From Gimesia sp. (GTDB lineage Bacteria > Planctomycetota > Planctomycetia > Planctomycetales > Planctomycetaceae), in NCBI RefSeq assembly GCF_040219335.1, contig NZ_JAVJSQ010000007.1, positions 124,001 to 188,000 of the forward strand: DNA of 64,000 bases, written 5' to 3'. Shown piece after piece: positions 57,878 through 60,718 of this stretch; within the stretch, counting starts at the first letter, position 1, and each line of letters begins with the position of its first letter. Made by a program: the position numbers and the translations under genes. A model generated the notes under the pieces. That model was not told the DNA's origin. It ran no database searches and worked only from the letters and a program-made list of their open reading frames with translations.

Positions 57878-57959
57878 TTCGGGCAGGCGAACTTCCCTGC
57901 AACTTGCCCTGTCTTAAATCTGAGCTTGCTATACCCGCCGTGGCGCGGGATACTCGAAC

Positions 57960-58049
57960 ATCCGTTCGTGGGACTTGAGAGTGACTTCCGCGTGAGCATC
58001 TGCAGCTTTTCAGCCCGTCGCTGTCTGCATTCCCCGAACGGATTTTTTT
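57960..58049 (+). ncRNA. Candidate structured small RNA upstream of the vWA gene (Y-RNA-like)
   Basis: ATCCGTTCG-T-GGG (57960-57972) pairs with CCCCGAACGGAT (58032-58043) to give a 12-bp stem with one bulged T. The 59-nt interior contains a second stem (GCAGC 58002-58006 with GCTGT 58020-58024, extended by GCA/TGC), and a run of seven T (58043-58049) follows the closing stem. End-to-end pairing with a bulge, an internal hairpin and a 3' oligo-U tail is the Y-RNA layout; the alternative is a terminator or attenuator of the vWA gene, whose likely start is at 58060. TATACC at 57930-57935 is a possible -10 box but its -35 is poor. No folding programme was run. Confidence 0.5.
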
Positions 58050-58059
58050 GACTCAGGGA

Positions 58060-59538
58060 ATGACTCTGGTGACCAACGGAACCTATTCAACATCGTCTCC
58101 CGAACGAACTCGCCTGCGCGATCAGTGCGAACGGGAAGACCTCGTGATGTTTATCAACTCCTGTTTCGCCGCCACCCGGCAGAACGAGTATTATACCGAT
58201 CGGTATCTCGCCACCGTTTCGATTGAATTCCTACACCAGTACACGCTGATTAACTATCGCCTGCTTTACGCACGAACGCTGGCAGCCGGCATCAATCATT
58301 TTAACCAACTGCAGATTCTCTTTAATCTTCTCCAGTCCGGCGCGCCGGCTGATCTCACGCAGCGGTCTGAAGAAGGAGCACTGATCGCTGCTGCGCTGCG
58401 CGGACTGCCTCCCAACCGGGTGTATGGGCTATTTACACGATTGCAGCAGGCCCGAATCAATAATCGTCGCACGCGTGCCGTGATTAAGACATACCTTAAC
58501 TGGCGACGAGAACCGGATTTTGATGCCATCAAATATCGCAACAAGTTTTGTTCTGCAGCAGCACACATCCATTTTCAACTCGATGCTGAACTGGGACGGT
58601 TTCTCTTTGATCCTTCCAGCCAGAAGACTTACACGCGGCCCCTGCTCAATCAGTATCGACAGGCGCAGTACAGTGCCGCTGCCATCTACGAACTGCCCTT
58701 CACTGTCGCGGAATCACTGGCACAGAAGCATCAGATTCCTCGCGAGGTCTTCCTGCAGAAGATTCAACCGAAAATGACCGCAGCGGAAAAGATGCGCTAT
58801 CAGTCTACTGCTGCACGGACGAAAGGGGTTGAAATTGAATTTGACCTGAGTCGCGCAGGACTGACGAAACTGGCACTCTATATACTCTCGCTGAAGCAAA
58901 GCGAGCGACGGGACCGCGCTGTAGAACTGCAGGCTGCCCTGAATTCCGCTGCAACAAAAGCACTCCGTCGCGCTCCCCTCGCGCTGGGACGTGTCGCAGC
59001 CGTCCTTGATCGCAGCCGGTCTTCCCTGGGAAGTCGTGAGCGGCGAAACCGTCCACTGGGCGTGGCCCTGGCAGCCAGTTGTCTGCTCAGAAATGCAGCT
59101 CGGGAATACCGGTCTTTCTGGACACCGGAAAACGAAGAAACGGAATATGAATTTCTGACGCGACCTGCGGGACAGACGGCTCTGGCCGAACCATTGCTTG
59201 CCGCGCTGGAATGGGGGCCAGACCTGATCGTAATTGTTTCGGATGGATACGAAAACGATCCTCCCCAGCTGGTCGATCAGGTGGCGCGCGTGTACCGGAA
59301 AACGATTGGAAAAGGGAATACTCCGGAGATTGTGCATATGAACCCGGTCTTTGATGCCGATCATTATTCACCGCGTCGACTTGGCCCCACGATCCCCACC
59401 GTCGGACTGCGGGATGCAGAAGACATTCCCACCATGCTGGGCTTTGCCCGGTTCACTGCCGGAACGACGAAACTGGAGGATCTGGAAGCGTATCTCTCAC
59501 ACCGTGTCAACAGGATGCTGAACTCCGATGAAACCTGA
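58060..59538 (+). CDS. vWA protein with alpha-helical N-terminus (Ro60/TROVE-like architecture)
   Basis: A 492-residue protein. The start is taken as ATG 58060, since the TTG at 58048 sits in the T run of the upstream element; AGGGA abuts the ATG, and GTG 58069 is an alternative. Residues 1-300 are helical repeats, containing KTYLNWRREPDFDAIKYRNK near 160-180, a place where TROVE proteins have a W..KYR motif. The vWA domain from about 312 has an intact MIDAS: DRSRS (Asp317, Ser319, Ser321), Thr373 in GQTALAEPLL and Asp395 in IVSDGYEN. This order matches Ro60, which binds Y RNA and misfolded RNA. The TROVE signature itself is only weakly visible, so the assignment is inference. It overlaps the next gene by 11 bp. 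Confidence 0.75.
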   Translation: MTLVTNGTYSTSSPERTRLRDQCEREDLVMFINSCFAATRQNEYYTDRYLATVSIEFLHQYTLINYRLLYARTLAAGINHFNQLQILFNLLQSGAPADLTQRSEEGALIAAALRGLPPNRVYGLFTRLQQARINNRRTRAVIKTYLNWRREPDFDAIKYRNKFCSAAAHIHFQLDAELGRFLFDPSSQKTYTRPLLNQYRQAQYSAAAIYELPFTVAESLAQKHQIPREVFLQKIQPKMTAAEKMRYQSTAARTKGVEIEFDLSRAGLTKLALYILSLKQSERRDRAVELQAALNSAATKALRRAPLALGRVAAVLDRSRSSLGSRERRNRPLGVALAASCLLRNAAREYRSFWTPENEETEYEFLTRPAGQTALAEPLLAALEWGPDLIVIVSDGYENDPPQLVDQVARVYRKTIGKGNTPEIVHMNPVFDADHYSPRRLGPTIPTVGLRDAEDIPTMLGFARFTAGTTKLEDLEAYLSHRVNRMLNSDET

Positions 59539-60718
59539 AGATCTGCAGCAGACGATTTCGCTGAAAGGACTGAAGCTCGCTCCGTCACAAGTCCTGGGAG
59601 GAGTGCGTCTGGCGCCCGTAATACGTAAACAGGTTCGTGAAGATCTCCGTTTGACGCGGCGTCCCTACCATGAGGATATTGCCGCCGTTCAACTCGATCA
59701 GAAAACGGCATATTACTCCTACATTCCACATGCATTTATCGCGGACTGGTCAGACGATGGCTCACCGGCCGTCGCCTACGGTACACAGCTACGCCGTCTG
59801 CAGAAAAGGCAGAAAAACAGCGATGGCCGGGTTCATGACCTGGGCTTCATGACGGCGCGGGTGATGAAAAAAATGCGAAAGCGGGAAGACCGCAATCGAT
59901 TGCGGTTTCTTCCGATGGATCTTTCACTCGAAGGATTTCTTTCGCTCCATTTTGGTGGACCGGATGTGATCTGGGAAGAATACTCGCGCGCAGCAATCCG
60001 CGATGGTTTGAGCCCGCGTTGTGAGATGTCGGTTCCCGGCCGCTGGATTAAAGGGCTGGAAGATGCCCTCCGTGTTTTCGAAATTCATGAGAATCAGGTT
60101 GGTTCACTGGTTTTTGTGGGGGATGCCCTGGCGTCTGCCTTTATCGTACCTCATCCGGATGATTATCGTGATCTGCACGAAACACTGTTGACCGATGATT
60201 ACGGTGAGCTGCTCTATTTCTACGGACTTTACGCACAGGAAAACCGGTTACATCCAGCGGACATCGATGCCAAGCGGGTGGCGTCACTGGAAGACCTGCG
60301 TCGAGAAGTCAAGCGTGTGCGTGGCGACTGGTCAACGCTGCACACACTGATGTCTGATAATCTGCTGGATTGTCCGGTCCACAATGAAATGGTTTACAAG
60401 ATGGGCCCCTTTCAGTTGCAGCGGTTCATGACGGAATTGAATCCGAAGGTGGAAAACCACATCGGGGAAGCCATCGTCCGCAAGAATGGAACGTTGGAAT
60501 ATTTGAAATCGTATCGACTCTCTGCCGCCCAGTGCCGACGTGCTTATCTGCTGATGCAGCTCGCTGACAGCAACTGGTCTGTCGAAGCCTGCGCTGAAAA
60601 ACTGAGTTGCACAACTCACGAATTGATTTACCGTCTGGAAAAAGCGGGCTTCGGTCACCTGTTCCATCAGCATGTGCATGACAAAGTTCAGAGCATGCTG
60701 CGAAATGACCCCTGGTAA
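59528..60718 (+). CDS. ARPP-like protein with C-terminal Fis-like HTH
   Basis: A 396-residue protein overlapping the vWA gene by 11 bp, so co-translated. The N-terminal region (SLKGLKLAPSQVLGGVRLAP, FLPMDLSLEGFLSLHFGGPD, VPGRWIKGLEDALRVFEIHE, VGSLVFVGDALASAFIVPHP) recalls the ARPP domains reported by others in RNA-repair-like gene neighbourhoods; I recall this only roughly. Residues about 280-345 are helical. The last 50 residues, DSNWSVEACAEKLSCTTHEL with IYRLEKAGFGHL, look like a Fis-type helix-turn-helix as found in sigma-54 activators, but no AAA+ domain is present. Function unknown; nucleic-acid binding inferred. Confidence 0.65.
   Translation: MKPEDLQQTISLKGLKLAPSQVLGGVRLAPVIRKQVREDLRLTRRPYHEDIAAVQLDQKTAYYSYIPHAFIADWSDDGSPAVAYGTQLRRLQKRQKNSDGRVHDLGFMTARVMKKMRKREDRNRLRFLPMDLSLEGFLSLHFGGPDVIWEEYSRAAIRDGLSPRCEMSVPGRWIKGLEDALRVFEIHENQVGSLVFVGDALASAFIVPHPDDYRDLHETLLTDDYGELLYFYGLYAQENRLHPADIDAKRVASLEDLRREVKRVRGDWSTLHTLMSDNLLDCPVHNEMVYKMGPFQLQRFMTELNPKVENHIGEAIVRKNGTLEYLKSYRLSAAQCRRAYLLMQLADSNWSVEACAEKLSCTTHELIYRLEKAGFGHLFHQHVHDKVQSMLRNDPW

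Follow-up and report, generated by a model that had tools for sequence, protein, structure and literature searches.

Introduction

Bacterial Ro60 proteins (Rsr) accompanied by Y RNA or YrlA are known from Deinococcus, from the rsr-yrlBA-rtcBA operon of Salmonella and from actinobacteriophages. The subject of the present work is an element of 90 nucleotides (nt) and the gene next to it in a 64,000-nt stretch of Gimesia sp. (Planctomycetota; contig NZ_JAVJSQ010000007.1, positions 124,001 to 188,000), which as a whole is called the window. About 5% of the bacterial genomes sequenced have been reported to encode a Ro60 homologue (PMC4726728); up to 2020, functional studies of the bacterial particle had been limited to Deinococcus (PMC7790460). 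It is considered quite probable that positions 57960-58049 of the window are the gene of a small non-coding RNA, a dedicated partner of the adjoining Ro60-fold protein, and that both form a particle of the Ro60/Y-RNA class. According to sequence and structural model, the best reading is a divergent ribonucleoprotein of the Ro60 class whose RNA forms a Y-RNA-like family of its own. The protein is regarded as a distant relative of Ro60, a human autoantigen, and the RNA-protein pair points to a bacterial counterpart of the Ro60-Y RNA particle which is undescribed in the open-licence literature. A preliminary description of the window, made from its letters, had suggested a divergent Ro60-Y-RNA pair in a planctomycete; in substance this has been supported by fold, covariation and co-occurrence, as a candidate particle, and the case has turned out to be broader than proposed.

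Structure and covariation of the RNA element

The outer stem P1 comprises 13 base pairs (bp) and one bulge (T57969). Positions 57960-57968 (ATCCGTTCG) and GGGA at 57970-57973 pair with TCCC at 58031-58034 and with 58035-58043 (CGAACGGAT), the arms enclose 57 nt which are themselves conserved, and a run of seven T (58043-58049) closes the element. Both arms had been placed here by the preliminary description, along with one bulged T, the seven-T end and an internal hairpin; all of these were recovered, P1 with one pair more than had been given (57973-58031; 13 bp versus 12). RNAfold applied to the window sequence gave P1, an inner helix P2 (57980-57985/58017-58022) and a hairpin P3 (57994-57997/58005-58008), and the base pairs of the window are taken from this single-sequence fold. 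Its energy is only modestly better than that of shuffles (z = -2.05), therefore the case is settled by comparison. The element stands above chance because it is near-identical in eight genomes of the same genus and recurs in at least five phyla with compensatory changes. The covariance model R1 scores the window element 63.1 bits (the window sequence being part of the training set), and the 7.9-Mb genome contains a single copy of the RNA.

Covariation of the stem among homologous loci, which had been named beforehand as a check on the structure, was found in alignment A5 (57 sequences, 25 pairs, rows picked with a pattern). Both sides have changed with pairing kept in 19 of the 25 pairs. Paired cells amount to 93.6%, compared with 77.0% in shuffled alignments and 34-50% after sliding by one to three columns, and double changes were counted in 249 cells versus 68.6 after shuffling, a value which none of 500 shuffles reached. 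The covariation score was 0.551 versus 0.224. The bulged base is a pyrimidine in all 57 sequences (C in 40, U in 17). MAFFT displaced the Gimesia rows of A5 by one base in the 3' strand of P2, which slightly lowers the score of this helix.

It is probable that transcription starts at the stem itself, because a -10-like box (TANNNT, ending 4-13 nt before the stem) sits directly before it in 37 of 51 loci across phyla, compared with 2-14 in ten equal control windows further upstream. The GATACT of the window is kept in all eight Gimesia-type loci.

The Ro60-fold protein

The gene which follows the RNA had been described as a Ro60-like vWA gene, and its best PDB fold matches are indeed all Ro60/TROVE (about 400 residues), though Pfam TROVE is blank. 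The AlphaFold2 model, built with 44 sequences, has a predicted local distance difference test score (pLDDT) of 84.5. Foldseek with this model gave only 2nvo (Deinococcus Rsr), 1yvr and 2i91 below 0.001, all of them Ro60. With a second structure aligner Ro60/TROVE proteins filled the first ten places (Z 17.3-13.1, 400-413 residues aligned), and the rows after the tenth match the vWA domain only. The model supports a Ro60 fold over nearly the whole length of the protein. Searches of PDB sequences with the protein or its profile gave nothing significant, so homology rests on fold and profile; hhalign against the canonical TROVE alignment A6 returned 92% probability over 274 columns.

The metal ion-dependent adhesion site (MIDAS, DxSxS...T...D) is preserved among the 44 sequences, with D317, S321 and D395 invariant and S319 and T373 kept in at least 90%. 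The invariant H171 is aligned, in one profile alignment (A6), with human H187, the histidine within the LRLaHpk motif, and the change of this residue of human Ro60 to serine abolishes Y RNA binding (PMC11277228). Protein identity across phyla is 50-57%. As the start codon, GTG 58069 is favoured over ATG 58060, because the GTG is conserved and the ATG is CTG in locus L004.

Occurrence and linkage of the RNA and the protein gene

The preliminary description had tied a structured RNA to the vWA gene, and this link is supported by covariation together with the co-occurrence described here. According to the protein search eight genomes of the genus, counting that of the window, have the gene, and the same element lies upstream in each of them. 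It is near-identical in these Gimesia-type loci, with upstream genes and sequence that differ among the genomes; hardly any change is seen in either arm, in the segments GGGACTT and TTCCGCGT or in the promoter-like GATACT. The nine other genomes of the same genus lack both the element and a close homologue of the protein. Three planctomycete homologues (about 50-55% identity) do have the RNA, with arms that are exchanged yet complementary. Among 294 Planctomycetia genomes the covariance model matches 11, the same 11 which hold a close homologue of the protein.

Eighty loci were gathered from species genomes by protein search alone, and they span Myxococcota, Cyanobacteriota, Actinomycetota, Pseudomonadota, Planctomycetota and one Sericytochromatia bin. 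The RNA lies upstream on the same strand in 76 of them, 73 recognised by pattern and three (L074, L080, L084) by the covariance model; on the opposite strand the pattern search of the 80 loci found it in none. Two of the exceptions (L057, L083) are contig ends, with the RNA at the end of another contig, and in the other two (L045, L105) it is located elsewhere in the same genome, so the genomes of all four hold the RNA. The gap between RNA and protein match has a median of 57 nt and reaches 601 nt, and seven loci contain two copies of the RNA.

The genome of Nostoc sp. 106C (G310) has the RNA on contig C240, and its protein gene is an interior gene of C72, a contig of 236 kb. A Myxococcales bin (G311) has a divergent yet complete copy (31.8 bits), which lies on a contig other than that of the protein gene and is flanked by reading frames which we take to resemble dnaK and an rRNA methyltransferase. 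Because RNA and protein gene are on different contigs in these two genomes, the RNA probably acts in trans.

The RNA was absent from divergent relatives of the protein (25-35% identity; L009, L010, L030, L031), where L009 gave a match of 16.9 bits, no better than chance, and from canonical TROVE loci. No relative was found in viral contigs, and phages gave one remote partial match only.

Some further features of the loci can be mentioned. The loci with tandem RNA copies before one protein gene are cyanobacterial (L039, L048, L049, L061, L078, L079, L089), and several of these pairs combine different inner loops (types TTCCGAACC and TTCCGTTCC), which looks like the parallel retention of two subtypes. 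Locus L076 (BNCN01000010.1) is titled Comamonas sp. KCTC 72670, a label which may be wrong because its RNA and neighbour genes cluster with those of Myxococcus and Pyxidicoccus.

Comparison with known Ro60-Y RNA systems

By position and architecture the element can be regarded as Y-RNA-like, and by its letters as a separate family outside all described Y RNA families. In Rfam, including Y_RNA (RF00019) and YrlA (RF02553), it is unmatched at the gathering threshold and up to E 10. Membership in a known Rfam family was rejected, since permissive scans gave only unrelated matches at chance level. Bacterial Rsr/YrlA systems share with the new pair the Ro60 fold with vWA/MIDAS and an adjoining gene for a small RNA whose ends pair and whose stem is bulged. 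They differ from it in three respects: Pfam TROVE is blind to the protein described here, its RNA has neither a YrlA match nor a tRNA-like module, and in nearly all loci ARPP-2 is its neighbour. For a tRNA-like module as in YrlA, no tRNA was called in L001 and L027-L029, and Rfam tRNA is unmatched at the element. As a positive control, YrlA was found by Rfam at phage loci of canonical Ro60, below the curated score (E 1.7e-6 to 3.4e-4); the new RNA model finds nothing at these loci, and conversely YrlA is not found at the new ones.

Vertebrate Y RNAs (RF00019) and nematode stem-bulge RNAs resemble the element in their paired 5' and 3' ends, a bulged pyrimidine in the lower stem, a variable inner loop and a size of about 90 nt; the 3' U run is present in the window as well. 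Vertebrate Ro60 binds the lower stem, a helix of seven pairs in which a single bulged C faces a bulge of three nucleotides (PMC4726728). The latter arrangement is absent here, although a bulged pyrimidine and a conserved helix are present, the GGGA/UCCC helix being situated beside the bulge.

In the divergent relatives L009 (G002) and L031 (G068), 25-35% identical, a tRNA or tRNA-like sequence lies directly before the vWA gene, and these sequences may be tRNA-mimic Y RNAs of another kind. tRNA genes were also called before some canonical TROVE genes of Planctomycetia, and the frames before others read like translated tRNA (L115, L121, L124), which is consistent with tRNA-like Y RNAs. The genome of the window itself encodes, outside the window, a second TROVE/vWA_Ro60 protein of the canonical type (537 amino acids; L139, G000:C7:7589-10816), without the new RNA.

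Alternative explanations and proposed function

One alternative is that the element is a chance fold, or a plain terminator that serves the gene before it. The modest folding energy and the adjacent T run would agree with it; the upstream genes vary and the element stays conserved, the 57 enclosed nucleotides included, and covariation and conserved loops extend across phyla. Its probability is close to nil, and we regard it as already refuted by the comparative data. A cis-acting 5' leader of the vWA-ARPP-2 operon, either an attenuator or an autoregulatory site bound by the protein, with no separate role of the RNA, deserves more attention, for the RNA is always on the same strand, in most loci close before the gene (median gap as given above), and in the window the T run sits between stem and start codon. 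Gaps of up to about 600 nt, double copies in seven loci and the separation of RNA and protein gene on different contigs in two genomes argue against such a leader, and the distal stem joins the predicted 5' end to the terminator region, as suits a free RNA. An attenuator of the downstream gene, the alternative named in the preliminary description, is disfavoured on the same grounds, and the leader as a whole is judged improbable.

Somewhat more weight, although still in the range of the unlikely, is given to a defence or conflict system in which RNA and two proteins act together, the RNA as a decoy or sensor (e.g. for RNA-cutting enzymes of invaders) and not in quality control. ARPP proteins have been described in ADP-ribose-centred conflict systems (PMC9503650), and the unit is patchy within the genus and occurs on plasmids, on one of them flanked by transposase genes. 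PADLOC gives no match, and conservation of the sequences from phylum to phylum is high (50-57% identity), in contrast to fast-evolving defence genes. A defence role is compatible with the Ro60-class particle and does not exclude it.

Several points weigh against the Ro60-class particle. Pfam TROVE (PF05731) matches neither the window protein nor any of the 44 homologues, and because of this the protein is called Ro60-fold, a divergent sister family and not a member of Pfam TROVE. With hhalign against the narrower TROVE alignment A7 the probability is 17% and only the vWA part is still matched; as evidence for homology, sequence is therefore inconclusive when taken by itself. Because the words GGGACT, TTCCG and CCC served to select the rows of A5, their columns are invariant partly by construction; the outer stem, P2 and P3 are unaffected. 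The co-occurrence in 11 of 294 genomes does not represent 11 independent events, because RNA and gene adjoin and the genomes are related. Both trans cases come from draft assemblies, and a strong U run is seen in some loci only.

For the Ro60-class particle the following course may be proposed. Transcription would begin at the stem and stop at or beyond the T run, and the protein ring would hold the lower stem with its bulge on its outer face, in the manner of Y RNAs. The inner loop, with its conserved UUCCG and P3, could gate the channel or bring in another factor, and the particle might work with ARPP-2 in the handling of structured RNA or in a response to RNA damage or conflict. The function of the particle is the least certain step of this explanation. 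Tentatively, and with less than even confidence, a second bacterial Ro60 ribonucleoprotein class can be envisaged, unrecognised by sequence, equipped with a Y RNA family of its own and with ARPP-2 as dedicated third component, present in at least five phyla and partly plasmid-borne, which would be a sensor of RNA damage or invaders rather than a device of general RNA quality control.

The range over which Ro60-class particles are known would be extended by a conserved unit of RNA, protein and enzyme that occurs in Nostoc, Calothrix, Myxococcus, Streptomyces and Gimesia, and such hosts are tractable. Its third component, ARPP-2, may give a clue to the role of the particle. A covarying RNA family that Rfam does not match is in itself a new entry.

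Features of the locus and the ARPP-2 neighbour

The coordinates of the features are collected in Table 1.

Table 1. Features of the RNA and protein locus (positions in the window)
Feature	Position	Strand	Basis
Promoter-like site: TTGCTA 57926-57931, 17-nt spacer, GATACT 57949-57954; predicted +1 near first stem base	57926..57954	+	activity inferred
Y-RNA-like small RNA, about 85-90 nt including T run	57960..58049	+	covariation; covariance model R1
P1, 5' arm; bulged T57969, conserved GGGA 57970-57973	57960..57973	+	fold, covariation
P2, 5' side, AGTGAC; pairs with GTCGCT 58017-58022; conserved TTCCG 57986-57990 next	57980..57985	+	fold, covariation
P3 hairpin, GAGC 57994-57997 with GCTT 58005-58008	57994..58008	+	fold; 4/4 pairs covary across phyla
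P2, 3' side, GTCGCT	58017..58022	+	fold, covariation
P1, 3' arm (TCCCCGAACGGAT)	58031..58043	+	fold, covariation
Ro60-fold protein (TROVE-like helical ring and vWA domain with MIDAS), start GTG 58069	58069..59538	+	alignment, model, fold matches
ARPP-2 protein (PF22549, E 7.2e-112); overlaps Ro60-fold gene by 11 bases	59528..60718	+	Pfam match

The ARPP-2 gene is located downstream in nearly all loci, at times after an insert. For its main domain the PDB search gave no convincing match, and a Fis/NtrC-type helix-turn-helix is predicted, with weak support, at the C-terminus. It has been proposed that the ARPP family acts on ribose moieties in ADP-ribose conflict systems (PMC9503650). The ADP-ribosylglycohydrolase-centred systems described there are alike in having an ARPP-family protein, with vWA proteins reported in the neighbourhoods; they are unlike the present unit in that, in the passages found by search, the three other ARPP neighbourhoods contain HIRAN, WYL and a deacetylase, with no mention of Ro60, TROVE or Y RNA in the text (PMC9503650).

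The RNA-vWA-ARPP-2 unit is carried by cyanobacterial plasmids (L058, L061, and L148 on pNe_3 of Nostoc edaphicum). On pNe_3, predicted to be conjugative, it is flanked by transposase genes, XisH/XisI genes are inserted between the two proteins, and in the annotation neither protein gene has a name beyond 'hypothetical protein'. The RNA is preceded by a small gene (about 120-135 codons) in ten loci of cyanobacteria, L048 and L061 among them, and in Nostoc sp. 106C (L149, G310:C240) a 134-codon frame lies directly before the RNA, away from the protein gene.
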